A stretch of DNA of 64,000 nucleotides from Pomacea canaliculata (lineage: Eukaryota; Mollusca; Gastropoda; Architaenioglossa; Ampullariidae), in the NCBI RefSeq assembly GCF_003073045.1, contig NC_037590.1, positions 7,475,835 through 7,539,834 of the forward strand. The letters are read 5' to 3'. Both the position numbers and the translations under genes were made by a program. This document shows positions 9,561 through 64,000 of the stretch, one piece after another. The stretch's first letter is position 1. Every line of letters begins with the position of its first letter. The notes beneath the pieces were generated by a model. It was not told the DNA's origin and did no database searches. It saw nothing but the letters and a program-made list of their open reading frames with translations.

Positions 9561-9630
<70 letters not shown>

Positions 9631-13854: not shown

Positions 13855-13855
13855 T

Positions 13856-17726: not shown

Positions 17727-17781
<55 letters not shown>

Positions 17782-17815
17782 TATTATTATTATTATTATT
17801 ATATTATTATTATTA
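17727..17815 (+). repeat. (ATT)n microsatellite
   Basis: About 29 units of TTA/ATT with two short interruptions. It produces an artificial Tyr- or Ile-rich reading frame. Confidence 0.95.
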
Positions 17816-32957: not shown

Positions 32958-33132
32958 CAGGGCTTCTGCTTACGCCAAAAATTGCGTACAGTACGCATTA
33001 AAAGTTCGGAGGACCCCTTCAATTTTCGTCAATGGGGTCCCCTTCAAATTTGGGCGAAGAACAGGGATCCCTTAAAAATCTGAAGAAGGGGTCCCTGGGA
33101 CCCCAAAGAATTTAGCTTTAGCAGAAGCCCTG
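32958..33132 (+). mobile_element. MITE-like element with terminal inverted repeats, copy 1
   Basis: A 175-bp element starting CAGGGCTTCTGCT and ending AGCAGAAGCCCTG, which are perfect inverted repeats. It is flanked by the hexamer GTCAGC on both sides (32952-32957 and 33133-33138), a likely target-site duplication. A reverse-complement copy lies at 63695-63861. There is no coding capacity, so it would be a non-autonomous DNA transposon. The inner part is rich in GGGGTCCC/GGGACCCC words and can fold on itself. Confidence 0.85.
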
Positions 33133-35778: not shown

Positions 35779-37835
35779 CTATATTTTCGATGTTCTTAGG
35801 CCAGTCTCATTCTTCAGCTGTACAGAAGCCTGGTTTGACTCATTGCTCTGCGCATGTCCATTACTTAACGCATGCGCTTGAAGAACTTCATCCAGAAGTG
35901 GGTTTCCTTTTCTTGGAGGAACAGGAGAGCTGGTTTCCGTGCCGTACAGTTCTAGCATCACTTCCTCTTCATCGAACTCGGTCGGCGCTGGCTCACCATC
36001 GACATTGTTGTCATCAAGCAAGTCGTTATATCTAAAAAAAAAATAAAAACAGGAAGCAGGTATGATGATCATGTAAAGAGATGGAACTGAGAAACATGTG
36101 ATGTGAGACTTAATAATAAGAAAGAAGACAAATAGACAGAATGAGAAAGAAATATAAGAGCATTGAGAAAGAAGAAAAGGGGACGGAGAAGGGCAATGAC
36201 GAGTGGTAGGGAGAGTTGCTAATGAAAATCACGTGGTGCGTGTTAAGCATACTGTTTACTTGAATGTTTAGAGAAAACTTTTTACTGTTTGTTATCTTCA
36301 TTATCGCCAGTCTGCGCAGTCGGCTCCTTGCCATAGACTGGATTGTTCCTGTAAATAACAGACAGAATGACAGTATGAACATAACATGTCTCTCGCGGAT
36401 CTCCATTCTTTCCTAACCCTTATGTAAGAAAGCGAAATTGAAACTGCCTTAGGTTTTTTTTAAAAACAATGGTAAAAATGCCCGCAAAATACCTGTACTA
36501 CATTTCGGTCTTAATATCTGTTTATAATAATTGTCCTTTGATGATTCATTTTTATGATTAATTTGCCGGTTTTCATGAAACAACAAATGAGAATAATAAT
36601 GTTCTTCGACATACCTCACAGTAATAGGGTTCATGTTTAAAAATGTGCTAGATTTTGACATCAATGCTGAAAGGAAAAAATAGAAGAGTTAAGAACATAT
36701 TTCAGTAAAATGAAATATGAAAATACATTATAGTAAAATAAAATAGGAGAATACGCATAAATTAAAGAAACTTATCCATTTCAGTAAAATCCTACATCAT
36801 AACTTATTAACATGAGATATTGTACAAATTATTTATTTTAATAAAAATATAATCGTCCATTTCATTATAGTATTTAATTCAAATAAATTTGAAACAGAAG
36901 ATATTACATCTTAGTAAATCAGTTTCTAAAAATACTTTTCATTTAAACTTCTTGCAATAAAGAACAAACAAAATGTATGCAAACACGATGACATGCTAAT
37001 GAAATGATTTTAGTCACAAACGTATGCCTTCACTATTTCCTTTATCCTCTATTTGATATCATTTGGTCACCAATTCCGAGAAAATTGGATGTCCTGAGTT
37101 CAGATCTCGTTTCAGGCACATTGTTATTTTTCTCTGCATGAGCGGCATCTGTTTACAGGGCTGACTGCTGTCATGATAAAGCATCAGTTGCTAGCTTGAC
37201 GGAGAACACCAACACCTCCATCACTTTTTTTTTTTGACTAATAGATTAAAATGCAATTTATTTTCCTATTTAATGTTTTTGTGTAGGAAACACTGTTTAG
37301 CGAAACTGGCTTTTCACTTACGATCGGCTTCCGTGGTACTCGCCATCAGCTTGCGTTTGAACCTGTGAACAGAAACAATAACTAGGAAAACATACCCGAA
37401 CAATCTTTAACAGCAGTGACAGGATCATACTTGTTCTTGAAAAACCATACCTACAGGTATAGCATGTTTGAGGTGCCTATAAGAAAAACTCTGAGCAAAT
37501 GAGTTTAAAAGAATAATAAAACTGATGAAGCGTTTTTTTAATGTGGCAAAATCACACGAGATATTTTATAAGATATGGGAGTTTACATAACTTTGCGAAA
37601 TTTTTAATGATATAGAAAGACCACAATTAAATTATAAAATACAAAGCTAGGTTGTCTTTGTATAAAACAAACACTCGTTGTAAACAAGTACACTGCACTG
37701 TACTTGCCTGTATATATTCGCTATCATCACGATAAGCGTGACGAGGAAGCCAATGACGAGGACACAGATAATGCCAACAAGAATATATTCCATTCTCGTT
37801 TTGTCGTCTGACTTCATCTCGGCCTCCCTTGCAGT
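35779..37835 (-). CDS. Cadherin A exons 31-35: TM helix and cytoplasmic tail
   Basis: Exons 37708-37835, 37322-37362, 36615-36666, 36286-36348, 35779-36031. Exon 31 encodes YILVGIICVLVIGFLVTLIV, then IANIYRFKRK, a basic stop-transfer. Its donor is CAG|GCAAGT, a GC donor. The tail has MNPITVRNNPVYGKE, an acidic stretch and LYGTETSSPVPPRKG. The small 3' exons invite alternative tails by exon skipping, although that is not shown here. Confidence 0.9.
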
Positions 37836-40800
37836 CTGTCACGAAAATTTTACAAAAATACTGACCAGTCTAATCCAAAGGACAAATTTTGAGAAAAAAA
37901 GCATGTAAATATTTTCAAACACCAAAACTATACACCATCGGAACTGTGTATTATGATGAACTATTTTGAAATATAAAATGATGAAGGACGATGATACTCT
38001 ACCTGTATGGCGAGAGCTTGATATTGATTAAGACCTTGCACCAGATTGGTATTGTGATCGATTTCACTGCAACGATAATTACAACAATTAATTATTTTAG
38101 ATAAAACAGTCCAATCTCCTTTACTTGCCCTTCTATCTTAACCTCCTTCTCCGTTTCTTTCTGTGCAAGCATGTGTGTAGAAACTAGTAACTCAGAGAGG
38201 CAGTCTTTCGCAATCGTGAAAAAATATATTCCCATTAACAGGTAAGGGTAAAGAATGACTTATATGGATTCTATTTATGCATGAGTGTAACATACATAAA
38301 TTTAAGTCCATATTTGCGAGGTGTCGTTTATATCTGCCCTTACTATCCTCAATCTTCTATTTACTAGCTTCTGCAATTCATCTCGAGTGTCGTTAGCCAA
38401 ATTTGTATGTTGATGCTGTTACCATTACTATTAAAATTATTTTCTTTGAGCAATAAACCTTGAAATGAATTTAATTCTTTATGAGCTTGCCATGAAAAAC
38501 AATTATTAATTCACGAGTTATGTCAAGGACGACAACTGCAAAAATACTCACGCTTGCATGGTCGCTGCATCCACCAGGTTGTCGTTCTTGTCCACGGCGT
38601 GCACAAGTAACACAGACCTGTGAACATTATTCACATGTGAACATTCACAGGATCAATGGCATGCGACTGTCAACATTTTGTAACTGCGAACTACCGCCCT
38701 TATCTTCTAAGTGCTTTACTCTGCACAGAGCATGAGTAAACTCAGAATGTTAACAAGTTTTTAGCAATGAAGATGCTGAAGTGCTTACTTGAAGCGATCG
38801 GCATTCCCGTTGGTGTCCACAAAATCTATGATGCCGTCGTCTATGAAGTCAAACTGGGATGTATTTCGCATGAAACTAGCATTGAGAGAAGAAAATAGGA
38901 CAAAGTTTAATAAATTAGCTCTGTCAAAATTTAAATTGGCGCTGTTAGTAATATAAATGACTAATGTATTCGGAGATAAAAATTAGCGAAATAAATAATG
39001 ACAGGTCCTTGTTGGACACGCAGAGACCGCATACATGAATACATTCCCGCCCTCGCAAAGAAAGAGGAAGAAGAAACTGTATTTAAATTTAAGAAATGTA
39101 AGATAATGCTTATCAGAATCATTAAGCTTCATTAGTTTCAAGAGGTACACCCGATGGCACATGTTTGTTTGTATGTGTGCGTGTGTGCGTAGGGGATAAG
39201 AGAAGATGAAAACACGCTACAAACCTGAGTATCTGTGACTTCATATTTCTGATGTCGTCTTTGGAATGAAAAAACGAAATTCGAATAATCTTATCTGTTC
39301 CAACTACGTAGACCTGGAAAATACAACTGACATGACTGAACTCAGTAAGTGAAACAATCGCTTAAAGACCAACCTGAACGGTTTGCTTTTTTTTCAGATA
39401 TCGGTAGATGTAGCCGATATAAAACTAACCTGTAAATTTCTGACTCCATCGGTTAATAAAATATTCGCTACGATTAGCACCTGCGATCAACGAGCACCGT
39501 ACAAGTGTACTACGTCATGTTGGTGTACCATTCACAACATTGCCAGCAGTCAATATATAAGAAATTAATAAAAGGTTCATAGTGGTATGCAGTGCTGGTA
39601 AAGATAGAGAGATTGTGTGTGTGTTTGGAAAAGATTTAACGTGTGACTGATAGAGACATAGAAAAAGACAAAGACACAATTATACCAAAAACTGACTTTG
39701 AGAAGTGTTTCGCTGCTGCCAGCTGAATCATTAACCAAGACTCGCCACTGGAGCAAGCCCTGCATGTCTGCGGAGAACGACCTGTTGGTCTGAAGACTTC
39801 CGTTGACGGTCAGACGCAGTGAACTGTCCAGACCAAACTGTTTCAGGTGTCCAACAGGGTCTATCGGACCCGCGGGGTAGAAGGCGTGCACACGGTTAGG
39901 TTCCAGGTCTGCATCCGTCACTAGGTCCTGGAAATAATTCAAAACACACCAAGAAAATTATTATGTATATCCTAAAACAAACAACTTACTAATCTCGCCA
40001 CAAATTACAATATAATATTTCACTTGTCTCAATGTAAACTAGATAACCTCACTCAGGAGCCTTTCCACGCACTTGTATTCACACGTGATCAGAGTGCATT
40101 ATTAAGTTCTCCTGATAATGAATAATTTTGTTTATATTCCAATATAGGTACTTATTTATCCACAATCGGCTTCTTTTCATACCCCTGTGAATATGATCAC
40201 TGTCTGAAACTGGGATCTTGGTGATTCCAAATGCTAGTGTAGTTATTTACCTGAAGGTTTAAAATCTCTGTCCCGTATTCTGACGTTGCTAGGAAACCAG
40301 CGGAAACAACGGAGCTGGTGAAGATTGGAGGGTTGTCGTTGATATCTTTGACCAGTACACGCACTTTAATGGACGTGTTCTGGGCCTGACAAAAATAAAT
40401 AATTAGCCATAAACAATTGAAGACACTGGTTATACAACTGTTTGTCTACCCGTCTTTGCGTCAGTCGGTTTGTTTCTGACATTCTTTGCTTACCCTCAGA
40501 TACATCCATTGTCTTCCCAACAACAAATAACAGTCCTGGCGAATTGCGAAAAATAACTTATTTTTGTCCTTTTATTTATTTATTTATTTATTTATTTTTT
40601 TTTGCTGCTACTGCAGAAAGGTCTTTCACATGCTGCACAATAAATTCTTGTCCGTCACCTACCTGGGGTGGGTTTCCGCATTCTTGTGAGAAAGGCGTGT
40701 CGTCTGTCGCTGTGATGGTGACCGTGACCTCACTCTGTTTTTCCCGGTCAAGTGGCTTTAGCAACGTGAGTACACCTTCCTGGCGTGAGTTAGCGTTGAC

Positions 40801-43800
40801 ATTAAAATAGTCCCAGAACTCACCGACCTCTAGAACATAAGATTAATCATACATTCAGGGTTTCCAGTTACCGTAGATATAACCAACAACACGCACGCAC
40901 ACACACACACACACAAAGATAAAGTGCTTAAAAGCTCGGGGACAGACCAACAGGTGTTAACTACCTACCAAGCCTGTAGAGGGTCCGTGCATCAATGTCA
41001 GGATCAAAGGCTAAGACGTTGCCCACGGTGACGTTAGACAAGTTCTCGTAAACCTCAAACTGTTTCTCGCTTTCATTGAATTTGGGTGAGTTATCGTTCG
41101 TGTCGTTGATGATGATTGTCACACGTTGTGATTGACTAGTTTGGACGAAGGGAAGCCCTTTGTCTTTGGCGAAGATCCATAGCTAAAAAAAAAACAAAAA
41201 AAAACACGACGACAGGTGTTGGAAAGCAATTAGTCTCTCCACGATTTGTAGAAGTGTCTGATTTTAGTCAAAGAAGCTCATTCAAAATTTGTGTTCGCTG
41301 CTTATATTTTAATGCCTGTACACAAGTACACATATTTATACATATTTAATAACATTATGAAGCATCCGAAAAGAAAACAGTAAATAAAATTGTTTTTCTA
41401 AATGTCTGATAAAAATATAATGAAATCATCTAAAGTCACACACTTTATCCCTAATTCAGTGTTCATAGTCTAGCTCAACTAAGTTTTTTTTAATGATTAT
41501 TCTAATAATGCTACTTCTATCATCCGAGACGGAACAAAGGTCTGTGTATCATATACTAAAATAATATTTTAAGAATAAGACACCTTTTTGAAAGCAGAAT
41601 TGCAAATTCATTACAAACACCCGCATTGCGAGAGAGAAGACCTTCTGACCTCAAACCGAGCCTTGGTCTCGCTGTCGAATGACTTCCCCTGAGCCAAGGT
41701 GAGGTCGCCAGTGTCGACGTCGAGACGAAAGAAAGCCAGGTCGTCGGCACTGGTCAAGGTGTTGTCCAGAAAATACTGAACTTTGCCGTTAGTGTCTTTG
41801 TCTTTATCGTCATCAGTAGCATTGAAAGTGTAGATGGATGACCCGGACCTTACACACTGTAAGAAACAAGAAATGTTGCCACAATGAATCATGAACAGTA
41901 ATATAACACATGAGCAAATGTAAAATTATTTTCTAACAAATATGTTTCAGAAAATAATCAATGGTATTTTATTTTCTGATTTTTAGCTTTATAGCTTAAT
42001 TTTTTTCTGGAATATACCTAGTTTCCACGAAATCCTTTTGCTCGAAAAGCGTGTGACACGTTGTAACCACCCAAATGATATTTATCTGCTGAACAAGCAG
42101 ATTTAAGGATCATACCATACACAAATGGTCAAAGCATCTAAAGGATTCTACCTCAGGCACTGCTGGTACCGGTCCAATGTTCACAAACTGAGGAGCGTTG
42201 AGATTGACATCAATGACTGTGATCGTCACATTGGCTGTCGCATTCAGGGGCGGATCACCGCCATCAGTCACCGTCAGAATGTAAGAGTAGACTTCCGCCA
42301 TTCCTGTAAGATTGCTGTTGACCAGTATACTTCCGGTTGTCTCGTTGACTGTAAACAAGCTGAAGTTCCCCATTGGCGTCAGTTGATAAGTCAGCTCCGA
42401 GTTCTGACCCAAGTCCTGGTCTGTGACTTTTATTTCTGGACTGATGTCGGACACTTTATCTCCCTTCATAGCGGTCTCCACAATCTTACCCACTATGGCT
42501 GTGTTAGATGGATGGAACTCTGGCGCATGGTCATTGACATCCAGAACACGGATTTCAATTTGCTTAGATGTATGGAGGCTGATGCCTGACACTGGGTTGT
42601 CAAAGGCAGTAACACTTAGCATATACACATCCTTTATTTCACGGTCCAGTCCTCCTCCGACTGTTATTTCACCCTGAAAACAAATACAAAACCAAATATG
42701 TCTCTGCCTGTCTCTCTCCATGTGTATATATATAATTATATAAAACGTGGACGTTTTTGAACTATAAAATTTAATGTGAGACGCCATGTAAAGAAGTATG
42801 AAGTAAAGATGTATGAATGTCAAAACTTTAGACTGCGATAATTACCGTTGTTTTGTTGATGATGAAGTCTTGGACGATGTCAGAAAAGACAAACGAGACC
42901 AGACCGTTAACTCCTTCGTCTGCGTCTGTAGCAGTCATGATGCCAACCAGAGTACCCCGGGTAGCATTCTCGTAAACAGAATACCGTGTGGTGGAATTGG
43001 TGAAAACAGGGGCGTTGTCATTGGCGTCCACTACAGTGACACTGACTGTGATGTTTGAGGACAAGGGCGGGGACCCACTGTCCGTGGCCACAAGAGTGAA
43101 ATTCACTAGAGACTGTTCTTCTCTATTCAGTCCCCGACGCAAAGAAATCTTTCCTGGAAAAAAAACTCGCAAAATGCAGCTAAACCACAATTATAATTTC
43201 ACTAAAAAACGATATTTCTGTGACAATGATGTCAAAGATGATCTATGACATTGACGGCAATGAAAGGGGTGGTTGAAGGCGGAAGAGGACGACGATGATG
43301 TCCCTTCATCATTATATTTATTAGACACTCATACACAAATCACGTTTAGTTGACACTAATCAAGTTTAGTAGACACTAATCACGTTTAGTAGACACTTAT
43401 TATGTTGATTAGTCACTAACCTACAATGACAGGGTAAAAAAAAGTGCTTGCTATTACAATGCCACCAAAAGCATTACAGAAGGTGGGAATAAACTTCTAA
43501 TTTACGATTTTTTTCAGACACACAACTCCTTTCAGTGCTAGTGTGCATAAGCTATTGAATTTTTTTTTTATTATGTACAGCTAGTTAATGCATCCAGAGA
43601 AGTTGTAGTGCAGCTGGAGGAAGCCAATGTCTACCTACCAGAAGTCGTTACTTCAAAGTGCGATGTATTGTCTGGAACCAAGAAAATGACAGTCTGGTCC
43701 TTGTCCTTGTCTGTAGCTGTGACAGTGGCGACCTCTGTACCCACAGTTACTGCCTCTGACACAGTGAGCGTTGGATTCCCTTGGATGACAGGGCTGTTGT

Positions 43801-46800
43801 CATTCACGTCCTTAAGAGTGACTTTAACAGTTGCTGAAAATCAAAATAAAAAAAATAAATAAACGCTATTAACCATTTCTTGGACCTCTTTCTATTGCAG
43901 TATAAAGTTAATAAAATGGGGAGCAAAAAATTACGAAATATTATAAAGGTAGATTAAAAACAAAAGAACAAGAGGAATAACGCGTGACTAGATACTAGAC
44001 AGGATTCTGGAAGTGTAGGACAACGGACCGTGGAGTTTATGTACGTTTAAAAAATAATCATCTGGTGCCCAGAAGTGGAAATGTTTTCAATTAAAAGAAA
44101 TGGAAATTAACATTTAAAATAAAAACTTGTGAAATAACAAAAGGTTTGACAGCTTTCCCATCCTCGCTCTTCTTTCTGCTTTAACGAGGCGTCGCTGAGA
44201 TCGGTACTCAAAACAGAAGAATGTAGAGTTAATGGCGCTCATCATACCACAGTCAGCTTGGCAAAAGATCCCCATTGTGAAGCAAAACTAAATCCTAAAC
44301 AGTTGCATCGTCCTCACCAACAGCAGTCTGGGGCAGGTTTATCTGGGCCTTGATATCAGTCACCATGATGCTGAGAACAATAAGGTCCGCAGTTTCTCTG
44401 TCACAGGTGGAGTTGACATAAACAGCACCAGTCGTGGAGTTGACAGCAAACCAGTCCTGCGACGATTACCAATTGTTTATTTATGTCTAAAACACACTGT
44501 GTAGGCCGAATTTTTCTTAATTTTTTTCTTATCAAATATTTGTAATCCTTTTACCTTTTTACAGGAACAATTACCCCTCGTTTAAAGAAATTATTACAGC
44601 TGTACAAAGGAGCACATAATGGAGAAAGGGAGGAATAAGAAGCAATGCTAGAAAGTATGACTTACCCACACTTCTCTGTTGTTGACATGGAGAAGGCGGT
44701 CATTGAAGGCTTGTGTTTCATTCTTCAGAAGTTCATAGGTCAGCAGGTGATCTGTGTCGGGGTCTGTGGCAGTCATGACAAGGACCGTGTCGCCCACCGT
44801 GGAATTCTCCGCAACTTTTCGCTCCCCCTGCGCTGCTCCGAACATCGGAGGTTCATCGTTGATGTCGAGGAGGAAGACAGAGACGGTGGCGCTGCTTGAT
44901 CTGGGGGGATCACCCCTGTCCAGGACGAGAACAGACAGTTGGAAGTTATCTTCCTTTTCTCGGTCAAGCTTCGCTCCTGGGCCTACTGTTACTAACCCCG
45001 AGGTGCTGTTTACTCGGAAATTGTCGAAACCTCCGGAGTCCAGGACGAAGAAAATGATGTTGTTTGGTGCGCTGGTGTCATTGTCAGAGGCTGTAAGCTT
45101 GATGACACTTTCACCTGTAAGAATATGATCACATGACTACAGACACACATAAAAGTGGATGAAATATGTTCCAAAGTGGTTAATTTGAGATTTACATTAA
45201 AGATTTTTTTAAGAAAACATATTCCAAAACATATAAAACATGTTTCAGCAATATGACTCATCTTAGATAAATTAGTACAAAAATGAAGCTGTATACTAAT
45301 TTTATTTTTGTAAAAGTATCATTAATCAAATAACAAAAACAATTTATAGAATTTTTACACAGTTTATTTTATTTTTAATTTTAAACAAATGATACCTTTA
45401 AAATATGTTTGAGAAAATTCATAAACATATTATTTATAAAAGCAAAATAATATGAAACCTTGAGTGCTGTTTTCAGGAATACTTGCGTTGTATGATAATT
45501 TGTCAAAGTTTGGAGCATTGTCATTTTTGTCCTGCACATTTAACAACAACGTTTTAAATAATTTTAAAATCAAGGAAATAACAAAGTCAGAAAGCTGCTG
45601 CTTTTTAAATTATATTTATTCAACGTGATATCTAGATTTCTCTTTTAAAAAAAGATTGTTTATTTGCCCACATACGCTTTATAAACCTCGTCAAACACAA
45701 ACACACTCATACATATACACCACATGATTCTAAAACTGTATTAATTAATAATCAAGTAAATTTTTGAAATACAAAACAGCAGCGAGAAGCCTTTGCAAGA
45801 GCATAAATATATAATAATAAATGAAAAGTCTGCTATCTTCTTTGAGTGCTGAACAAATGATGATGATGACGACGACGACGACGAAGATGATGATGATCTA
45901 TGCTCAGCTGTCGCTTACAAAGAAAAATGTAAAAGAGAAGTAGGAAGTTACTAGTCATCAATCTTACTAGAAGTGTGATGGTAACATCTACTGTCGAGCT
46001 CAGGGGTACAGTTCCTTGATCTCTGGCCTCCACTGTCAGAGTTAAGGTTTCTGAGCTTCTGCCTCTGGTTGACATGGCATCGAAGTCCAGTGACATCTTG
46101 ACTACAAGGTCCCCAGTCAGAGGGTTGATTTCAAAGTGACCGACAAGTCCAGGGGGAGTGGTAGATGGTAGAAGACTGTAGGTGATGTTGCTGTTCGGCG
46201 TCCCTTGCTCATCTTCGTCTGTTGCCTATGGCAGCAAAGAACACACCACCATAAGTTCATCTTGAATGTGAAGTGGGAGCCATTTCTATACATATGTGAT
46301 GAGAATAAATGTAAACAAATAAAGCCCTTAGTAAAGACGAGTAAACAGAATGCAGTCTTACCTCAAGACGCAGAGGTCTGGTAAAATTCTTTTCACCCTC
46401 TGGTAAGATGGCTTCGTACTGATTTCTTCTAAAAACAGGTGGGTTATCGTTTACATCGCTGATAGAGATCGTTAGTGACGTCACGTTGAGAAGTCCTCCG
46501 CCATCTTGAGCTTGTACGAGCAAAATGTAACTGGCAGTCGTCTCGCGGTCTGTTGTGTTTGAAGCCACCGTCACGTTGCCACTGTGCGAATCGATGTCAA
46601 ATCTGTGGTAATTACAAAAACAAAAATTATACACGTTGGTTACATTTTGAAAAATAAAAAAGATGTATGCCTACCCTTTAACATTTCCGTTTCGAAAGAG
46701 TTCAAGTCTCTAACACGAAGATAGTCATCGTGATGACTACGATTCGATAATTTTATATAATGATGACAAGTAAACTGATAACTGAACAAAATTGGGTAAA

Positions 46801-52800: not shown

Positions 52801-53379
52801 ACCGTGCCTCGAGTGGTGTTCTCGAGGCAAGTGTAGTATTGCTCGATTGTTACCTTAGGCAGTGAAATAGCCTGTGCCAGCATCAACACTGTCCAGAAGA
52901 ATACACAAAGCAAAGGTAAAATACGAAACGCATAGGTACTGTGTTAAACAGATTCACTAAAAATCAAATTAAAATTGACTTAAACAGAAACAAATTAGCA
53001 ACACAGACGTCAGGACCTTTAAAAAGGTCTCAGCTAACGGGAGGAATGAGATCATCTTTTAATTGGACAGTTCTATGTACAGCTGTGACGTCACGAATGC
53101 TAACAGATTTGTTGCAAAGTGATGATAGAGAACGGAGGTGATTATTTGCCCAAATTTTGTGAAAAAGTATCTTGCACTAGGCTTTATCTATTATAAGAAA
53201 AAAGTTACAATCTCATGACTTTAATACATACGTGATCAGACAGGCGAAACACTTAAAAGCACAATGGACACCACATGTTCGTGCAGAAATATAGTTATTA
53301 AATTATATATAATGACAACAGGAATTTGAAACTTACAGAAATTTGTTGCAAGGCAACATCCCAGTATCCTTTTGTCCAT
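35779..53379 (-). CDS. Large transmembrane cadherin (CDH23/PCDH15-like membrane-adjacent region), complete, 35 exons
   Basis: A calcium-dependent adhesion-type protein of 1,847 aa; 35 exons total 5,544 bases and every splice junction keeps phase. Layout: signal peptide (1-23), about 13 cadherin repeats plus a 14th degenerate one (24-1567), a juxtamembrane domain (1568-1669), one TM helix (about 1686-1710) and a 137-residue tail. The repeats show LDRE, DxD and DxNDN-type calcium motifs, for example VNDNAPTF, VNDNPPVF, ANDNAPVF, VNDHAPEF. The juxtamembrane part (VGTDKIIRISFFHSKDDIRN...) resembles in layout the membrane-adjacent domain of CDH23/PCDH15-type cadherins; this is my judgement from pattern, not a search. 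The tail carries NNPVYGKE (NPxY) and SPVPPRKG (SH3-type). A paralogue follows at 59210-64000. Start choice: the ATG at 53379 gives a signal peptide once joined to exon 2. Exons are given in the ten segment entries below. Confidence 0.93.
37083..37228 (+). mobile_element. tRNA-derived SINE, tail type 2 (truncated)
   Basis: It contains TGTCCTGAGTTCAGATCTCG (B-box region) and GGCATCTGTTTACAGGGCTG, and ends with GAGAACACCAACACCTCCAT, like the tail of the copy at 10621-10806. It lies antisense in cadherin A intron 32. The head before 37083 is not recognisable. Confidence 0.65.
38003..39927 (-). CDS. Cadherin A exons 26-30: last EC-like and membrane-adjacent domain
   Basis: Exons 39697-39927, 39225-39313, 38789-38875, 38552-38617, 38003-38066. 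Exon 26 begins VTDADLEPN and ends with a repeat that lacks a final DxNDN linker. Exons 27-30 code the juxtamembrane part: VVGTDKIIRISFF, an acidic loop FIDDGIIDF and LLVHAVDKNDN. The second gene has exons of identical length and phase (89, 87, 66, 64 bases) here. Confidence 0.88.
40251..41182 (-). CDS. Cadherin A exons 23-25: EC12 (end) and EC13
   Basis: Exons 40969-41182, 40663-40829, 40251-40385. They hold NDTNDNSPKF, AFDPDIDA, PLDREKQSE and KDINDNPPIF. For exon 24 the acceptor at CTAG|AGGTCGG is required to keep frame; the AG two bases further would give a stop. Confidence 0.88.
41650..43153 (-). CDS. Cadherin A exons 20-22: EC9 to EC12 (first part)
   Basis: Exons 42846-43153, 42152-42673 (longest, 522 bases), 41650-41856. 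Motifs: GLNREEQ, VDANDNAPVF, ATDADEGVNG, GLDREIKD, LDVNDHAPEF, VTDQDLGQNS and the deviant linker IDVNLNAPQF. The frames running antisense at 42125-42589 are shadows of exon 21. Confidence 0.92.
43320..43412 (+). repeat. 20-bp minisatellite in cadherin A intron 19
   Basis: About four tandem units of the form AGACACTAATCACGTTTAGT with small differences between units. Confidence 0.85.
43639..45114 (-). CDS. Cadherin A exons 17-19: EC7 and EC8
   Basis: Exons 44666-45114 (one of the longest), 44318-44456, 43639-43833. They hold ASDNDTSAPNN, KLDREKED, LDINDEPPMF, ATDPDTDHL, CDRETADL and KDVNDNSPVI, all canonical cadherin calcium motifs. EC8 carries a longer A-F segment (NDRLLHVNNREVW) split by an intron. 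Confidence 0.9.
45459..46932 (-). CDS. Cadherin A exons 13-16: EC5 and EC6
   Basis: Exons 46865-46932, 46362-46602, 45968-46225, 45459-45531. They hold FDKDLGG, TTDRETTASY, SDVNDNPPVF, then ATDEDEQG and LDKNDNAPNF. A GAT/GAC microsatellite (45855-45895) lies in intron 15. Confidence 0.88.
45855..45895 (+). repeat. GAT/GAC microsatellite in a cadherin intron
   Basis: A run of GATGAC-type trinucleotides in intron 15 of cadherin A. It creates poly-Arg/His frames on the minus strand that are not part of the gene. Confidence 0.9.
47258..47840 (-). CDS. Cadherin A exons 11-12: EC4
   Basis: Exons 47688-47840 and 47258-47425. This repeat ends with EHVNEFAPEF and has lost the usual DxNDN. It also lacks a clear LDRE. 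Several NxT/S sequons (for example NMT, NNS, NGT, NET) are present. Confidence 0.85.
48249..49531 (-). CDS. Cadherin A exons 8-10: EC3
   Basis: Exons 49447-49531, 48961-49082, 48249-48452. Motifs include AQDGDRG, ALDRDMS and the linker RDVNNNPPTF, with N in place of D at a calcium position. The exon 10 donor is CGG|GTTCGT, a poor match, but the next exon joins in frame. Confidence 0.82.
49796..50983 (-). CDS. Cadherin A exons 5-7: EC2
   Basis: Exons 50894-50983, 50533-50667, 49796-49915. They hold AMDPDNGQGG, LDYETANFY and a linker QDVQDSPPFF. The linker deviates from the DxNDN calcium consensus. The exon 6 donor is ATG|GTCAGA, weaker than most. At exon 7 the donor after GTG (GTAAAC) fits better than one three bases earlier. 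Confidence 0.85.
51952..53379 (-). CDS. Cadherin A exons 1-4: signal peptide and EC1
   Basis: Exons 53337-53379, 52653-52888, 52238-52279, 51952-52047. Exon 1 codes MDKRILGCCLATNF and ends in a perfect GTAAGT donor. Exon 2 continues LLMLAQAIS, so the signal peptide spans the first intron. The mature protein begins near LPKVTIEQYY. EC1 closes with the linker EDVNDNAPTF in exon 4. An AGC/AAC microsatellite (52461-52524) lies in intron 2. Confidence 0.88.
52461..52524 (+). repeat. Compound (AGC)n(AAC)n(AAT)n(CAT)n microsatellite
   Basis: Four successive trinucleotide runs within intron 2 of cadherin A. They lie outside the coding exons. Confidence 0.9.
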
Positions 53380-56300
53380 CTTTTCCAAAAGATTGTGTTT
53401 CTGGCATAAAGAGTGAAGAAATTTAAGTACTAAGAACAAGTTTGATGCTTCTCTATTGCCTGAACTAAACTAGATTTTCCTGTTATAAATTAGTTTAGAT
53501 AGTCAAATATTCATCGTAGACACGAGAACGAGGCTTTTTATATTCTCTGTATTTTGCCAACTCTTAGTTCATTCATTTCATATTATTATTTATAAATTAT
53601 TCTACTTTTATGAAGCAGCAATGCTGTCACGACTTTTGCGCAGGCAATTTGGATATGACTGGATTGAATCTGATAAAAATACTATTTCCTAAAATCTGAG
53701 CTCTCTGTTCTGAAAAAAAGGAAAGAAGCTTACAAACATCAAAAAGATCAAGACCACAAACTTGACAAGTTACTCGTTAAGGCTATAGCTAATAAGAGAG
53801 CTGGGACTAAAAGTTAATTAAGTTTGTGTGTGGTTATTTGTAGCTTCACGGGTCTTGCATGTGTGCCTGGTAATATGTGTATACGGGTGTCTTCAAAAAG
53901 AAGGGTGCTCTTCGCTAAGACTTCAGCAAATAACATTTCTGCACCAAGCTCAGGTCAGTCATTTGAAACACGAATCGTACCCTGCTAACCCGTTCATGTG
54001 AAAGGTCCGAGATTTATCGCCATTTAATACAAGTGGTTCGTAGTTCAAAGCAAGAGAGTGATTTAAAAAGGGAAGGAACAGGACGCAAGAAGCCAGATTC
54101 AAACTTCGTAACCAGGTGCTAGCTCAATGGTTGACACCCAGCAGGTAGCTAACTCTCATAAATAATTAGCCGCTAATAAACTAAAGCTGTCTTAGCTGCT
54201 GCTTGGCGTCAGTCCTCGAGTTAGCACCTAGCGACCTTCTCTCCCCCTGGTCCTGGGGTGTGGTGGTTCCAGTCCATTATCGCATACAAGCGATAACATG
54301 CTAGAGAAAGATGGCGACTACTGCAAGCTAGTGCTATTAGTGTTGCTCATGCTGTCAGGAAATGGACCTTAGTAGTAGTAATAATAGGCCTTTGTATCTA
54401 TCTACTTACCTGTTTGCAATTCTGTGCAGATAATGATTCTATCTTAAATAAGTAGTGGTTAGTTATTCCATCGTTTGTTCCACGTATGACAACTGTTTCA
54501 ATCAGTCGATCAATGAGTGAAACTGTTTACAGCCCTCACAAGCAGTTCCTCGCTGTCTCCTTCATTGCCTACTACAGCTCATCAAGGAAGGGAAAAGAGA
54601 AGGAACGGAGCACATAGAGACTGAGAAAGATTGTGACATATGACCACGACGAGAATTCTCTATAAACGCCGATTTATACATTAAAACTGAGTCCTTAAAT
54701 CTCACTAAAGTATTACTAGTATTTAACTGAAGAAAATTTAATCCAATGTTTAATAATAAAATAAAAATAAAAACATTTACATACCGCATATCTAGTTTAG
54801 CACAAAGTTACAAAGTCTATTCTGTTATTTTGCAGAGCAATGGCAGCTAGTGCTAAAGCATGACGATTGAATATAATCAAGAAATACTAACGATATTAGA
54901 TAAGTTTACCACATTAAAATGTAAAAAAAAAGAGTAACAAGGACATTGACAGTTATAGATGTGTTTTGTGGATAGAAGTGAATGTATCTTGATAGCCTCT
55001 ACAATGACAAGTGTTTCTCAAAGCTGCCTGATGTTTACTATCAAATATTCTACCCTGCCCCCCTGTCAGACACTGCTCCTTGTGGTCGGATTGATTGCAT
55101 GGCACAAATAAAATGTACCTGGTCGTTTCTAGTGTCAAGCCAAGAGAAAAGCCGGGAGCGATAATATGGTCGGACATACAATTAATAAACTGTTATCTTG
55201 AAGTTATCTTCAAAATAAAAAAATAAATTAACCACAGGTGGATTTAGAGAGACCTCTTTTATAACACAGGCAGGATTCTCTTAATTAGTTTTACGACACG
55301 AACGTTCATAAAAAGGTATTTTAATGACTTACAGTTTTTATGCTTTTAAACAAAACTTTACTTCAAGGCAAAATGAGTTCTGGGCGTTACAGAAGTGTTC
55401 TGGTCACTGAAGACAGTGGGGCCCACACATCAAAAGACTCAATGCTAAGCACACCTGAATGCTTCTCAGCTAACTGGAGTTGTTTTGGAAGCCATCCCCA
55501 TCCTCACAAAACTTTTAATCTGGCTTAATAAAAGTAGACATTCCTGACAATACTACCCGAAATCTAGGAAAATATTAATATAAATTTTATAAAAACACGA
55601 CTTTCATACTAGCTACTATTAACTTGCTAAAATTAGTCTGAATACTCGACAAGACAAGTTATTGATCATCTGTATACTCAGGTGAGTGGTTCTTGGAAAA
55701 ACTAACGGCTTATCGAATTATTCTAATTACGCACTCTCTCTCCCTCTCTGTCTCTCACACAAGCTTTCATCTCTCACCAACATCATAGCCCTCAAACTGA
55801 AAAAGCCTCTTACCTTAGATTTTGTAAATTTCAGAGGAACCTTTGCCTCAGAAATGAAGGTTAATACAAGTCGATGTGTGTTCCGTATTTATCTCTTTAA
55901 AATATCCTACCGCACAGTCTAGTCTCACAACAGATACAGTTCTCAGTTCATTTAGTCCTGAACAAGGCCTTCTGGGAACGTTTCCCGATATAAATACAGT
56001 GTGCAGTCAGTTTAACCTGTGCAATGACTCCTGTACACACATCTGCACACACACCTGTACACACACCTGTGCCAACATGGTTCCACACATTCACAGGTCC
56101 TGCACACAACTCGCTAATCAAAGTGTCTCGAGATCCGGGTGGCGGGGAGGGAGTCAGAGTGCACCCAGTGAGAATGTAGGTATGGTCACCCGTCAGTCAC
56201 CTTATCACAGGCTAATCTTTTGTAGTTCCATTACTCCTCTTCCCAAACCGATAAGGTTGTCCTGTCCCTTGCCCTCTAACAAGATGTGTTTACAGTCATG

Positions 56301-59209
56301 CGAATTCCCCCTTCTCTCCACCCCAGGTAAAATTAATCATTATCAAACAGGAAGAACTACACTCACACTTCTATTTCTGCTGTCAACAGCTTACATTAAA
56401 CTCTTGTGAGTCACAAGGAAACAAAAGTGTTTGATCTCGCTATCACCAGGCATACACAGGGTCTCCCACATTTGTTCTTAACTCAGAAAGTAGAATCATC
56501 ATTACACAGATAATACAGAGAGTAATGTTGTCCAGAAAGAAACGGAAATCATTCGGCATCAATATTGCACATGCATCTTTTATTTAAAAAAAAAACAAAC
56601 AAAACAATAAACGGGGAACTGTCATTGATATTAAGATAAAGAGATTGAATTGCTGGCCGTAATAATTTGGTAATAAATTACTGGTCGTGCTGTTCTCGAA
56701 AGCCGCAAACTTTGTTTTCAAGTGCCGTGTTCGTGCTGTTTCTTGTCAACCAGCACTCAGCGCACTGGAAAGTATAGAGTTGCAACAGCCACTGGCGGTG
56801 AAGAAATGTTACTTGGGCATTCAGGTCAAATCACGTCCTTATTTGTTTTGCTGTTAAAAAACCCAATAACTTTTAGTATTCTAAAAACTTTCATCCTATT
56901 AAACAGAAACAGAAAAATTAACGAACTTTTCTTTACGTGACATAATGATTCGAATCAGAATTCTACAACGGGATTTTTTCCTTAAAACAATTCTATGAAA
57001 CTGTTACAAAGAAAGTTGACTACCAAATGTTTCAGGAACACGAAACAACCTCGTCACTCACGTTGACTACCTCCCTTGACATTAGAACTGTTGAGCCAGG
57101 TGACGTGACGTGACGTAACACATCCTAACGTTTAAGTTCGTTTTCTATTTGTTCGTGCAGTTACTTATCAGCACTCATCCATCGCTAATCTCTCTCTCCC
57201 TCTTCTTCTTCTCTCTCTCTCCTCTCTCTCGCACACTTCTCTTGAACTCGTTTTTTCAAATAGCTTCTTTGGAAACAAATCTTGACTTCGTCTTTACACT
57301 GTGCTTCACATTTGGCAGATTGATTGCGCACAGACATATTGAAAGGCACCGACTGTTTGTCCCTGTCAAGCCTTTGACCGCCCTAAGACTTTCTCTCGTT
57401 TGACAAGAAGGTCTGTCATTATGTACCCCACTATCTACTGTGAGGAAAGTAGCATAACAGACACAGAAGTAAACACGTCTTTGATGCTTTATTTCACGAT
57501 AAGCACACAGCTTCCTGATTTCTCTTGCGGTCGTCCTTATGATCGTTATCATCGTCCTCTTCTCACCACCAGCAGTACATTTATATACGCTTGCTAAAGC
57601 AATATTTTACATGGCATACACCGGTAGAGTTCGTTGGTCTCTGTTCTTAAAAATAACCAGAAATTATAGTTTGACATAGATTTGCTGTACATTCGATCTG
57701 ATTCTTCTTCTGGAACAAGATAATTGACATTTTACTTGATATTCTGCTTGGCATTTGACCCTTTTACTGAAAAGATTTTTGTTAGCAGAAAATCGACTAC
57801 ACGAAAAAAACACACCACCTTCATAATTTCAAGATTGAGCAATTATCTATTCAAAGAACTACATATAATTATGACAAAGATGCACATTTACATGCAGGCG
57901 AGGACCGGCAATCAGTGAAAAAAATCTTTTTCCTTCTCATACATGTGGTGTGCATACTACAAAGTAACAAACTGACAATGTATTCTTAATAATAGTATTG
58001 TACTTCAACTGCACTGAACAAACGTTTCACGTATTAATTAATATCGAAATTGCAATTAACAGCAATGCATGCGGACTAGAGTCAGAGAGTTTTACAAAAT
58101 TAATGACATGGCTTACAGAAACAAACAGGTGAGTGATACAGAGCCATTAAAGTGTGATATAATCCACTTTCCTAATATAGAGATAAAATAAAATGAAGTC
58201 CAGCTGAACGAAGGTTATGGAAAAGATAAATATTAAATATAAGCAAGGCTATGAATAAAACTGGACAGTAAAAGATAATCTCGTGTGTTGCGTCCCCTTA
58301 CAGAAAGACAAATGTTAATATACAAATGCTACATTTCTTAGCGTTTAATATTTACAGAAAAAATACAAATTTCAAAGCAGATATAATAATTTAAAACACT
58401 CTTTTTTTAAAAAATTTTAAATTGTACAACAGATTAATAAATACATGTAATACTGTTTAAACTTTACTATTGTGCAATTTGCTTCAAAATTAGTTAAGTT
58501 GGACGCAGTAATAGATATATTTCTTTTGATATTTAAATCAACATTCACCTCCTCCCTCCATCTTCCTTCATTGAATACTTGAAAACAAAAACAATTCACA
58601 ATCCACTTCGAGAAACTATGACAAAAGTCTAAGGTTAGAAAAAACTGGAAGGCAGCAAACACGTGTCCATTATTCGGCGGATCCATTAATGTTGTAGGTC
58701 AGGACAAAATGCATGGCGGCGAAAATGCATGGAAACGGAGCAGAAAGGAATTATTCACTTATGTTTGTTTTTAAAATGATATCCTCGTCTGACATAAGTC
58801 ATTTGCATGCATATATGTCTTTAACACAAATTTACAACAAGCCAAATGCATTAACAAGGTCCTATAAAAACATTATGCATTGTTCATACTTGAGAAAAAA
58901 GTTGAAATGCATGGGTACTCAAAACAAATTGTATTTGAAAATATTTATACCGTCTTCATTAATTAGTATTTTGTTAAAACATCGTTACAAAAAGAGAAAC
59001 GTGTAGTGTGGCGGGGCTCTGCTGTTGTTTCACTTCTGACAGGAAGCTTTAGAAGACTAGAAAATAATGTCTTTAGATGCGATTTTAAGTTGTCATTTGT
59101 AATTTGCACTTGTCACATCATGGCAGCAGTAAGTCCCACTCTCCTTTATTGTCCTTTTCAATGCCACACATAAATATTCTAGATTTTTGAACCTTTTAGG
59201 CCAGTCACA
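53380..59209. other. Interval between the two cadherin genes
   Basis: This holds the promoter and 5' UTR of cadherin A (right of 53379 on the minus strand) and the 3' UTR of cadherin B (left of 59210). I see no further exon. The 177-codon plus-strand frame at 55876-56409 includes a CACACA-type stretch and has no motif. A triple TGACG tract ending in TGACGTAA (57101-57118) and AATAAA-type words are present. No degenerate third cadherin copy is visible. Confidence 0.5.
57101..57118 (+). promoter_or_regulatory. Possible CRE/ATF-type site cluster
   Basis: Three overlapping TGACG units, TGACGTGACGTGACGTAA, the last of which forms the CRE-like TGACGTAA. It lies 3.7 kb upstream of the cadherin A start codon. 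Function is unproven, and a chance occurrence is possible. Confidence 0.25.
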
Positions 59210-59650
59210 TTAAAAATGGGAGGAATAGACGTTGCCATTGGAAACCTGCTTTGACACACCGTTTTTAGCATGCTCACTAGTTAGTTCGTGTTCTTGAAGG
59301 ACCTCATCCAGGAGCTTGTTTCCTTTTCTTGGAGGAAGGGGTGAACTGGTTTCCGTGCCGTACAGGTCCAACGTCACTTCCTGCTCGTCTGTCTCGTTTA
59401 CTTTTGCTGGACGGTTGTCGACGTTGTTGTCGTCAATCGAGTAGTAGTCGAAGCTGATGAAACAGAAACCAGTGAAGAATTTAATGGTTGATGTGATATA
59501 GTAACAAAATGACTTGGATGATGGTGGTAACAGCTTGTACAGGAGGCCTTCTTATGTCCTCAAATATTCTCGGACTGTGGCTATGTGGTCATTTAGTCTA
59601 GACTTTATTTGTTTGTACAGTTTTCATGTCCCCTGTAAGCAATTTCCCCT

Positions 59651-59684
<34 letters not shown>

Positions 59685-62600
59685 TGATTGATGATGGATG
59701 ATTGATGATGGATGGATGATGGATGGATGGATGGATGGATGGATGGATGATGATGATGATGATGCCTTTTTAGCTTAGTGCCATTAAAATAATTCGTTCA
59801 GATAAATACATTACCGGCTGTCATCATCATCGCCCGTCTCTCCAATCTGCTCCTTGCCATACATTGGGTTGTTCCTGTGTATAAACCCGGAGGTGGACAC
59901 GTTATAAAAATACATTTCTTGTTACTGTTTCTTGTTACTGTTTCTTGTTACTGTTTCTGGTTACTGTTTCTTGTTACTGTTGTTAGGTTTCCTCTCCCAA
60001 CCCTCCCCTGACCATCACTCGAAACCGATAAAATTTCAATGATTTCCATCACATTGTTGGAGCAGATCTTTATTTCTAGCCTCACGCTATCCCACGTGCA
60101 CACGAATTTTACTATTGCAAGCAAACACATAAATACGGTTATTCATTCCTTAATCACCGCTTAAACAACTTCTGTAAGAACTCTGTTACATACTCTTATT
60201 TGTAGGTGAAATTCTGTCGAACTTAGCATAAGGAACACGCACTATAGCATGAAGCATTATTTTCTGAATTAGCATAAAACACTTTCCCCTTTGCATCGAA
60301 AAACAAAATATTTCAATAATGTGTTAATTGCATTGTTCAATAAAGTTAATAATTTACATACCTCATGGTCCCAGGATTCAACTTTATGACTGTGTTAGCC
60401 CTTGTCATTGCTGTTGGAAATGATGGCAGACAATACGACATTTAGTTAAATAACACACTATAATAAAATAACTCATACTGATGTCTTTCAAAGAAAAATG
60501 ATAATATTATTGAAGTAACCGAGCAGTAGTCTGTTAAAACACAAACATTTTGTCATGATATTTATTGTGCGCAGGGCCACATTGTTCATATTTCCGGTCA
60601 GTTTTAAAATATATTACTGTTTGCAATATCTACTTTCAATACAGATGTATATTAATCCGTTAAACTAAACTAAGAAATAATGAATTTTGTTAACTATCCT
60701 GTTAAAACGATAAAATTCTGTATGTTATTGTTTGAAATTATACTAAAATGCATTAATTGTAAACTGTAAGTGACCACATACAACCATATGGAAATACATG
60801 GAACAAAACTAATATAAGCATCCATTCTTCATTTGTTTTGCTTCCTGTTTCGGATTAGATAGAATTTAGTTTTAAAGTGTAATAAGTAAGTCTTGAGTGG
60901 AACACAACTGTTAGCAAAGCTGTCCTTTCACTTACGATAGGATTCAGTGGTGCTCGCCTTCAGCTTGCGTTTGAACCTGCAGGTACACGACACAAAGGTT
61001 TCAGGTCACTCAGGTGTGTCTCTTCTTGTCTATAAAGCCTTTCTCCCACATAAAGCTTTACATTCTTAAACAACATTTAGACTTATTTGGTCCCAAAGCA
61101 GAGTATCGATGAGTTTTTCAAGGCAAATGAGTTAATAATCATTAAACAATTTTGTAGCTTAGGTGTAAGGTATGTATGGGATCAAATGATAACATCTTTA
61201 CTTATCAGCTGAGGATATAAAGCGGTTTGGTTTCTAAATTGCATGACACATATTCTTTGCTCTTATCAGCCAAGAAAAGAACTTTTCTGTTTAAAAACGA
61301 AAACACGTGATATCTAAAGAAGAACAGGAAGGAGTTGTTGGTCCTCGTCCTGTTTGTACTTGCCTGTATATGTTCGCTATCATCACAGTCAGCGTGATGA
61401 GGAAGGCAATGATGAGGGCAGCGATAATGCCGACAAGAACGTACTCCAGTTTGATACTGTCGTTTGCCTTCACCTCAGCCTCTCTTGCAGACTACATGTT
61501 AGAAAACAAAAAGGTTTACAGCCAATCAGCGCTATGAAGACGCATGTATACAGTGGGACAACTATTGTTTGAAAATAATGTGTTAATAGTTTACCTCTAT
61601 GGACAGGACTTGAAACTTGTTTAGACCTTGCACCAGATTGGTATTGTGGTCGAGTTCACTGCAAATATAAATACATACAAGGAGGTATAAGACAAAAAAA
61701 AAAGTCAAATAATTTTTATATGCGTTTCGATCCGAAATCAGAAACTAAGGAATGATCTCTTGGACTGAGAGAGAGAGAGAGAGAAAGAATCGCAGTAGTA
61801 AAAATAAGATGAATTAGAAAAAATGAATCTATGCTGAAGTGCTAGTGTTTATGCTAATATATGTATGTGCATAAATGGTGATGTGTATGTTGATATATGT
61901 ACATGCCGTTAAGTCTCTGTCAATGCTTAACCTCTAGTTGTGGATGTGAGAAAGTTGTATCTGTATGTCTTCAACTTATGAAGTGCTTTAAATAATCAAT
62001 GTAATGCTAACCTTTCATAAATAATAAATATTGCCATCATCTTGATACCGTTATTAGTAATACTAACAATATAAACATGACATAACGATAACTATTACTA
62101 AAAGCTGTATCATGGGTTGGTCATGAACTACTCACTTTTGTATGGTCGCCGCACTGATGAGTTTGTCGTCTTTATCCACCGCGTGCAGAATCAACACAGA
62201 CCTGTGAACAAGCACAACATTACTCAGCTGTGGCTTTATATGAACAGGTAAGTGAAATGTGTAGGTGACCACAAACGATAGATACCGACATTCTAAATTA
62301 TTCCCACTTTCAATGTCGGGTTTGAAACAAACCGCTTACTTCAATCGTGATAATAAATATCTGCTTGGCAGTTTTTTGAGGTGTTATGTTATTACTGTGC
62401 TTACTATGAAGTGCTTATGGATTAAATTGACTGAGATAGTGTTAATAAGTGTATCTTAGAATAAAACCCAAGGGCTTACCTCGAAGGATCAGCCTTTCCA
62501 TCTCCAACTATAAAATCCTCAGTACCGTCGTCAATGAAATTGTACTCCGATGTATTCCGCATAAAACTGGAATTTAAGGTATAAACTAGCTGTAAAAATC

Positions 62601-64000
62601 ATAACAGATAGTAAAGGCAATATTCTCAGTTTATTAAAAGCGAAATGACTCCAAGAATTAGAGAAGAAGAAAAAGAAGGGTCGCCTCTCTCTGGGCTCCC
62701 AAAATAAGCACACACGCCCATACAAACGCATGTACATATATAAAAAAACCACGAACGGACACACATACAGACACACACATACATATAAACACACAGCAGA
62801 CATGTACAAAGTTTTGAGTGAAGAAGCAAAAAAAGTCTCAGAGAACTTTGTTCACTGAGACAGAAAGCCAAGGAAACACTCACTAACCTCAGTATTTGTG
62901 ACTTCAATGTCCTCAATTCGTCTTTGGAGTGAAAGAGCGAAATCCGAATGATCTGGTCTGTCCCGACTATGAAGAGCTGCAAATATAACTGACTGGAGTG
63001 AGAGCAGCAACAGACTATCAGGACGAACAAGTGCAGGGTATGTCACACGTGTGTACGGAGTGTGTGTGTGTGTGAAAGTGAGTGTGTGTGAGTGTTTCAA
63101 TATAGTTATATGCAGTTTAGAACTAAGGACGAATCAATCAAAAACCTAATTGTAAAATTTGTTTTTGGTTAAAACTGTCATCTTACTCATACTGGTTAAG
63201 TATCAGTAGGTTTGTGTTAACCCCGAGCTCCTTTCAATGTGGTCAGAGAAAATATAAATTTAAAGCTAAAATAAATTTTCATCGCAAACACATTGTACAA
63301 CATTTACAAGACAACAATAACAACAGAAGAAACGCTAATAGTAATCATCATCATGAATGAGCTCACATCTTCAATCAAGTTGTTTTGTTTATCAGCAGAC
63401 ACACTGGATTGATAAATAAAGTTTACAACCAGTGCCATTACAGTATGTTTATATACTATTATTAACACATGATGCATGTATTAAAATAATAAGAAGTAAA
63501 ATCTGAAATAAGTATTATGCCCCTATGCCAAAATGGACATTGCAAAGAGTATTCCGGAGTACAGTGGCAGTTGAAGTCGGTTATTAATAATTTAAGCATT
63601 ACATTAAAAAAATATTTTCGAGATATGAAGTATACATATTTTGGGAAATGTCTAATTTAAATGTATTCTAAACAGAAATACGTTGACTAAGGTTCAGGGC
63701 TTCTGCTAAGGCTAAATTCTTTGGGGTCCCCTTCTTCAGATTTGTAAGGGGTCCCTGTTCTTTGCCCAAATTTGAAGGGGACCCCATTGACGGAAATTGA
63801 AGGGGTCCTCCGAACTTTTAATGCGTACTGTACGCAATTTTTTGCGTAAGCAGAAGCCCTGCAGGTTAATATTATTTTGCAAATCCTGCTAGTAAAACAT
63901 ACAGGGAGGAGGGGGGAACAAAAGTCAAAACTCTAGGAGAAAACCAGAGTGAATGAAAGGCATGCAGACGGAGAACTAACTTTCAGAAGTGTTTGGTTGC
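59210..64000 (-). CDS. Second cadherin gene (paralogue of cadherin A), 3' part only
   Basis: Ten exons are in the window; the 5' part lies beyond 64000. Exons: 63981-64000 (partial), 62888-62976, 62480-62566, 62136-62201, 61595-61658, 61364-61491, 60936-60976, 60362-60410, 59815-59874, 59210-59453 (stop). They match exons 26-35 of cadherin A in order and phase. Six consecutive exons (89, 87, 66, 64, 128, 41 bases) have exactly equal length; the next two are one codon shorter (49 vs 52, 60 vs 63). Product: juxtamembrane IVGTDQIIRISLFHSKDE and FIDDGTEDF, TM helix YVLVGIIAALIIAFLITLTV, then FKRKLKASTTES, NNPMYGKE and LYGTETSSPLPPRKGN. It is presumably the same class of calcium-dependent adhesion protein. 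The TM exon again uses a GC donor. Confidence 0.93.
59650..59764 (+). repeat. (GAT)n/(GGAT)n microsatellite in cadherin B intron
   Basis: A GAT run passes into GGAT and back to GAT in the intron before the last exon of cadherin B. It is close (about 50 bases) to the donor of exon 59815-59874. Confidence 0.95.
59915..59979 (+). repeat. 13-bp minisatellite, five units
   Basis: Five tandem units of TTTCTTGTTACTG, one with a G substitution, in the cadherin B intron just upstream (in gene sense) of exon 59815-59874. In gene sense the unit reads CAGTAACAAGAAA. Confidence 0.9.
63695..63861 (-). mobile_element. MITE-like element with terminal inverted repeats, copy 2
   Basis: A 167-bp reverse-complement copy of the element at 32958-33132, with the same CAGGGCTTCTGCT / AGCAGAAGCCCTG ends. 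It is flanked by AAGGTT on the left and CAGGTT on the right, a probable 6-bp target duplication with one change. It is about 8 bp shorter than copy 1 in the GGGGTCCC part. It sits in the intron between the first two visible exons of cadherin B. Confidence 0.85.

Follow-up and report, generated by a model that had tools for sequence, protein, structure and literature searches.

Contig NC_037590.1 of the gastropod Pomacea canaliculata (RefSeq assembly GCF_003073045.1) carries, at positions 7,475,835 to 7,539,834, a large cadherin gene and the 3’ part of a second one on the same strand, here called A and B. What kind of cadherin do these genes encode, and what array do they belong to? We favour the reading that this stretch of 64,000 nucleotides (nt), hereafter the window, is one end of a cluster of paralogous cadherins of the cadherin-23 (CDH23) type, with two membrane-anchored copies and five copies that end in a C1q domain. 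The anatomy of the genes as modelled is the most secure part of this reading, and we hold it with high confidence. The C1q-ending copies, which are what looks new, lie outside the region covered by a first-pass annotation of the window.

Positions are given in an extended numbering (contig position minus 7475834), in which the window is 1..64000 and is followed by the next 110 kb of the contig; these 174 kb contain no N. Genome-wide searches covered 440,159,624 bases in 24 contigs. All gene models were built from genomic sequence alone, using a finder that chains exons; its codon scores were trained on 35 pieces of exons picked by eye from the window, and it is not independent of these. Its output was curated by comparing paralogues: several exon edges were set by hand, automatic exons lacking partners were removed (four in B, one in C1 and two in C2), and others were added or resized. 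All five resulting models (A, B, C1, C2 and C3) form one open frame with a single terminal stop.

Gene A (35779..52888, minus strand) has 34 modelled coding exons and encodes 1823 residues with the signal-peptide exon unplaced, a product slightly shorter than the 1,847 residues first annotated. It comprises 14 extracellular cadherin (EC) repeats, a membrane-adjacent domain (MAD), one transmembrane (TM) segment and a short tail ending in RTSKI. The number of repeats follows from 13 EC linkers recognised by the linker motif; Pfam Cadherin matched 12 stretches within EC1-13 of the first A model (E 6e-155), and EC14 went unrecognised. The first placed exon, encoding EC1 (52653..52888, 236 nt, 5’ edge set by hand), has partners of 230-236 nt in B, C1, C2 and C3, and the 42-nt exon at 52238..52279 has 42-nt partners in the same four genes. 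Exon 17 (44318..44456, 139 nt) ends in phase 1, and a 195-nt EC exon comes next in both A and B. The EC14 exon (39697..39927, 231 nt; B partner 64211..63981) precedes four MAD exons at 39225..39313 (89 nt, with homology to the MAD of PDB entry 8tri), 38789..38875 (87 nt), 38552..38617 (66 nt) and 38003..38066 (64 nt). The TM exon (37708..37835, 128 nt) is followed by a GC-AG intron, the single departure from GT-AG among the internal splice sites of A, and then by tail exons at 37322..37362 (41 nt, FKRKL), 36615..36666 (52 nt) and 36286..36348 (63 nt, NNPVYGKE). The last exon (35779..36031, 253 nt) holds the stop, the motif SSPVPPRKGN and the C-terminal TSKI. A 51-nt exon at 39480..39430 was discarded, B having no partner for it.

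Only the 3’ part of gene B (59210..64000, minus strand) falls in the window, namely the last 20 bases of the EC14 exon and the exons for MAD, TM and tail; the gene continues to about 91405 and has 53 exons, 2961 residues and about 24 EC repeats. The annotated layout of about 14 EC repeats, MAD, one TM and a short tail thus describes A, and B is larger. The repeat count of B was taken from the linker motif and corrected by hand (25 motif hits, 4 false ones removed and 2 missed QDENDxSPVF linkers added). What B has beyond A is a signal exon of 55 nt and 18 further exons, inserted as two extra nine-exon blocks (440/139/149/156/165/68/244/258 or 237/73 nt). The double occurrence of this block accounts for the count of about 24 repeats; between the two, a 2.6-kb portion with its introns has 83% identity. 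The MAD exons of B lie at 62888..62976 (89 nt), 62480..62566 (87 nt), 62136..62201 (66 nt) and 61595..61658 (64 nt), the TM exon at 61364..61491 (128 nt, again followed by a GC-AG intron), and the tail exons at 60936..60976 (41 nt), 60362..60410 (49 nt) and 59815..59874 (60 nt, NNPMYGKE); the last exon (59210..59453, 244 nt) contains the stop, SSPLPPRKGN and the C-terminal SSHF. Two of these exons had at first been modelled differently, one in another frame at 62966..62888 and one in a longer version at 62589..62480; a stricter run replaced them with the 89- and 87-nt exons. In both genes a second frame of the 89-nt exon (39225..39313; 62888..62976) is also open and similar (48%), and it misled the gene finder in B.

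The two genes correspond exon by exon. The first-pass annotation had reported identical lengths of 89, 87, 66, 64, 128 and 41 nt, and these are exact in both minus-strand models. Over the last ten exons the phases agree throughout and seven lengths are equal, the 231-nt exon included, the other three differing by multiples of 3 (52/49, 63/60 and 253/244 nt). Over the whole genes, all 34 A exons can be paired with B exons, order and phase being preserved throughout; 25 pairs are equal in length and nine differ by multiples of 3. Since four edges (those of the 236- and 73-nt exons of A and the 42- and 73-nt exons of B) were set by hand while looking at the partner, their agreement is in part circular. 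Intron sequences had been described as showing no visible similarity, which holds for eight of the last nine introns (no blastn match at E<=0.01); one matches over 30 bp at its 5’ start. A and B alike have a GC-AG intron behind the 128-nt TM exon. Four bases behind this conserved GC donor, at 37708 and 61364, sits a GT; its use as donor would cause a frameshift and a stop about 20 residues past the TM in A and B, and might yield a tail-less form.

With a ratio of nonsynonymous to synonymous divergence (dN/dS) of 0.21-0.30 and dS of 0.84-1.70 between A and B, the proposal of an old tandem duplication under constraint is borne out, and so is that of a larger cluster past 64000: the added 110 kb hold the continuation of B and five copies on the opposite strand. 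A single transcript spanning A and B was rejected, because stop, tail and EC1 exon are all present separately in each gene. No further copies of the MAD, TM and tail exons besides those of A and B were found in the 174 kb searched. Both tails carry NNPxYGKE and SSPxPPRKGN, the latter presumably a class-II SH3 ligand, and we take the ends TSKI (A) and SSHF (B) for class-I PDZ ligands by their appearance. The motif KRKLxA behind the TM is common to the short, non-catenin tails of A, B and human CDH23.

To which family do A and B belong? The description of their layout as unlike that of classical cadherins agrees with Pfam, which finds no catenin-binding tail (Cadherin_C) in either protein at E<=1, and nothing above cut-off for EC14, MAD, TM or tail. 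The layout does have relatives, the MAD matching that of CDH23. In a phmmer search with EC14 and MAD of A, the best PDB match was 8tri (CDH23 EC25-MAD28, E 7e-7). A profile of the A and B sequences found the same entry at E 1.9e-8 over 188 positions, followed by an unrelated enzyme at E 1.1e-3. When the MAD alone was compared with that of 8tri, none of 5000 shuffles reached the score of A or of B, in a comparison chosen after the search; the alignment runs over 117 residues with only two internal gaps of one residue. The Pfam scan, the search with A alone and the search with the EC part used queries from earlier models, one residue off at the MAD exon join; the profile, the MAD-alone searches and the shuffle comparison used the corrected join. 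At the other end of the protein, the first three EC repeats of A can be aligned over their whole length with those of CDH23 (5w4t; residues 9-321 to 13-318, E 2e-31). Thirteen chains (CELSR1 and protocadherins) surpass 5w4t in E-value, but their best stretches begin no earlier than query residue 64. Of the 170 matches 60 were listed, and among these a best stretch starting before residue 61 occurs in CDH23 and Cdhr2 chains only. The homology of the juxtamembrane domain to the CDH23 MAD is our reason for classing A and B, on sequence grounds, as CDH23-type and not classical cadherins, a label that implies no orthology.

An alternative is that A and B are ordinary invertebrate cadherins of Cad88C/Cad87A or CDHR2 type, and that the MAD is common to all of these and implies no special link to CDH23. 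EC1-3 of A also matches EC1-3 of Cdhr2 end to end (5cyx, E 2.5e-24), at 89.2 bits as against 112.6 bits for CDH23. The EC14 and MAD profile returned five chains at E<=10, PCDH15 not among them, although PCDH15 chains match the EC part; the MAD content of the PCDH15 chains was unchecked, and the comparison covered PDB chains, the MADs of CDH88C and CDHR2 not being among the comparators. On the side of this alternative, CDH23 is described as deuterostome-specific, and CDH88C as present in all bilaterians examined except three deuterostomes, in the available part of PMC10734073. We regard it as a serious contender, somewhat short of an even chance. Measured against that partially available source, A and B either contradict a deuterostome-only CDH23 or belong to CDH88C, and a CDH23-type cadherin with a MAD in a mollusc bears on the published distribution.

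Beyond B, five further copies of the EC series, C1 to C5, lie on the plus strand between 100.3 and 152.8 kb. In all five, the partner of exon 17 (139 nt, phase 1) is followed, 0.7-1.0 kb downstream, by three C1q exons of 152, 130 and 143 nt, which take the place of the 195-nt EC exon, the further EC repeats and the MAD of A and B, with the stop at the same place in every copy. In every cassette Pfam recognises an almost complete C1q domain (PF00386, E 1e-18 to 3e-24). In C3 and C5 the leading C1q exon was lengthened manually to 152 nt; its sites are AG and GT. C1 was modelled with 30 exons and 1600 residues in one open frame, C2 approximately with 13 exons and 652 residues (remnants of exons 06 and 13 unplaced), and C3 approximately with 14 exons and 687 residues (four exons set by hand, the exon 13 remnant unplaced). 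Pfam finds Cadherin and C1q in one modelled protein in C1 and C3. The 55-nt signal exons of B and C1 match, at 93% over 200 bases, and C2 and C3 have 49-nt candidate signal exons in the right phase; the candidate signal peptides of B, C1, C2 and C3 were judged by hydrophobicity and splice phase only. By hydropathy, no TM-like stretch is present in any of C1-C5 as modelled: the best 19-residue score outside the signal is 1.38 in C1, 1.19 in C2 and 1.32 in C3, whereas the TM segments of A and B score 3.29 and 2.98. With candidate signals and no TM-like stretch, at least C1-C3 should be secreted.

Several points count against the reading of a CDH23-type cluster with secreted C1q forms. Searched against the whole PDB, the MAD alone is not significant: for both genes an unrelated chain outranks 8tri, which takes second place with E 0.031 (A) and 0.71 (B). 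The number of EC repeats (14; about 24) fits neither CDH23 nor other MAD cadherins. For gene A the search for a signal exon turned up only weak candidates, and the candidate of C2 is weak as well. The putative joining of EC repeats to C1q is deduced from reading frame, phase and its recurrence in five copies. The exon series begins only at exon 11-12 in C4 and C5, where no exons 01-10 turned up among the matches listed and no signal exon was accepted; the 73-nt exon of C3 has a GC donor; and C2 is without exons 07-12 and keeps only remnants of 06 and 13. Some of the C copies may therefore be partial or dead. C1q-superfamily domains form trimers, and it is from such general family knowledge that trimerisation and binding are carried over to C1-C5.

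The C1q exons could instead be separate C1q genes situated behind cadherin genes, whole or fragmentary, with which the gene finder has fused them, an idea to which the missing 5’ exons of C4 and C5 and the abundance of C1q in this genome (at least 114 exon-level matches) lend some support. This search caught two of the five cassettes (at 7593145 and 7603022 of the window’s contig), so its count is a lower bound. However, 84 of the 114 matches span at least 100 of the 127 model positions in one frame (hand count), so that C1q is not typically split into three exons in this genome. The similar distance behind exon 17, the matched phase 1, the three exons of equal lengths in five of five cassettes and the absence of a Met at the cassette start in four of them also speak against separate genes, which we consider very improbable. 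On the preferred reading, in which EC repeats and C1q belong to one protein, the EC-C1q architecture looks like an undescribed domain combination within the literature searched, and likely a new kind of secreted cadherin. No EC-C1q protein was met in that literature, which included the available parts of PMC5549309, PMC6835236, PMC10045044 and PMC10898136 and had subscription journals mostly outside its scope. In public annotation of this genome the genes may already be entered under generic labels.

How did the C1q-ending copies arise? B and C1 are related by an inverted duplication (71.9-94.4 kb against 114.2-97.7 kb) that includes introns and 5’ flanks, with identity mostly of 81-92% and two short pieces at 73% and 70%; intron divergence is 10.6% (7456 aligned sites in 17 introns). 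About three-quarters of C1 is this recent inverted duplicate of B. From about 115.2 kb onward the resemblance of C1 is to C2-C5 (69-88%), and none of the segments listed (150 bp or more) pairs it with A or B. With a 5’ part like B and a 3’ part like C2-C5, C1 is therefore chimeric, the breakpoint lying within 114.2-115.2 kb. The order and direction of the duplication and exchange events are as we infer them. B and C1 differ by a dS of 0.09, so that C1 catches the chimera soon after birth.

The C1q copies might also be functionless by-products of unequal exchange in the cluster, now decaying. EC exons have been lost in C2, C3, C4 and C5, C2 still has remnants of exons 06 and 13, as C3 has of exon 13, and dN/dS between B and C1 is high (0.66 over 899 codons). 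Against decay, all five C1q cassettes together with exons 16-17 are open and keep their AG/GT sites. C4 and C5 retain an open series of nine exons, from exon 12 through the C1q exons, with AG/GT sites, and exon 14 of C5 is 255 nt with a GT donor. The C1q domains have dN/dS of 0.29-0.51, below 0.52 in ten of ten pairs (given without a significance test), and outside EC1 the B-C1 ratio is 0.51, below neutral (p 0.001). We consider decay of the whole set unlikely. Positive selection on EC1 was considered and rejected: the B-C1 ratio there is 1.64 and not significant (p 0.33). Nonsynonymous divergence is 0.170 in EC1 and 0.048 elsewhere, and the faster change of the EC1 tip may reflect either selection or relaxed constraint.

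If the copies of the CDH23-type cluster are functional, a tentative picture of their roles can be drawn, which we put forward as a possibility of limited likelihood. CDH23 and its kin form calcium-stiffened links between actin-filled protrusions, with EC1-2 as the tip. Anchored A and B might form such stiffened links between apical protrusions or cells, and their tails, with class-I-like PDZ ends, could tie these links to the cytoskeleton. In the CDH23 kin the MAD adjoins the membrane (PMC8691648, available part). In C1-C3, the C1q domain would hold the proteins as trimers, so that the C1q forms may present the same EC1 tip in soluble, three-fold form, as a bridge, a coat or a decoy for the tip’s partner; we offer these three as guesses. 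C1q could also add a second binding face. In bivalve molluscs, C1q domains recognise microbial patterns (PMC6835236, available part). If the EC-C1q copies are real, one swap of a 3’ cassette at a phase-1 intron would have turned a membrane link protein into a secreted, probably trimeric one.

A more far-reaching variant is that the cluster is a diversifying recognition system, with one CDH23-type tip displayed both by membrane-bound proteins and by secreted C1q trimers, which would link it to microbes or glycans, and with C3, C4 and C5 serving as alternative 3’ cassettes (EC exons plus C1q) spliced to one 5’ set. We raise the cassettes because those of C4 and C5 are open, their own 5’ exons were not found and the phases allow it, and we rate the variant as distinctly unlikely.

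Other loci were seen along the way. A homeobox gene, which we take to be paired-like, lies at 31385 to 29943 on the minus strand; two exons together encode its homeodomain, and their joined sequence matches Pfam Homeodomain at E 1.5e-23. An open stretch at 8588..8998 (minus strand) presumably encodes the N-terminal part of a glycerophosphodiester phosphodiesterase (HRGG..APENTLQA), with no Pfam match at 1e-3. Directly behind the cadherin-C1q cluster, at about 154.8-168.2 kb on the plus strand, are two chitinase-like genes (GH18, by eye); stretches within and next to them show identities of 91% over 163 bases and 81% over 218 bases. Among 150 of 490 candidates scored genome-wide, long open EC runs of up to 1264 residues point to other cadherin clusters on the contigs labelled C3, C9 and C12, and a small group of short cadherin open frames lies about 30 Mb away on the window’s contig (37.86-37.92 Mb).

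Among known systems, mollusc C1q-domain proteins (Ig-C1q QREPs and sSUEL/C1q) resemble C1-C5, as described in the parts of the literature available, in combining an N-terminal binding module with a C-terminal C1q. In these chimeras, however, the N-terminal module is no cadherin-repeat rod, and the word cadherin does not occur in the available part of PMC6835236. Clustered protocadherins are likewise cadherins in a tandem cluster, but their EC repeats are encoded in one large exon, whereas those of A and B are spread over many exons and are followed by a MAD; nor do the models show shared constant exons of the protocadherin kind. Protocadherin-15 is, like A and B, a giant cadherin with a MAD (MAD12), following 11 EC repeats, and CDHR2 (protocadherin-24), of the intermicrovillar links, has a MAD10 (PMC8691648, available part, for both). 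CDHR2 shares the end-to-end match over EC1-3, at a score below that of CDH23, and has nine EC repeats. The closest counterpart is CDH23, the upper half of the hair-cell tip link. It differs from A and B in its 27 EC repeats compared with 14 or about 24, and in that A and B are clustered with sister copies that lack a TM; it resembles them in EC1-3, which match those of A end to end, in a MAD that is homologous and in register, and in a single TM.

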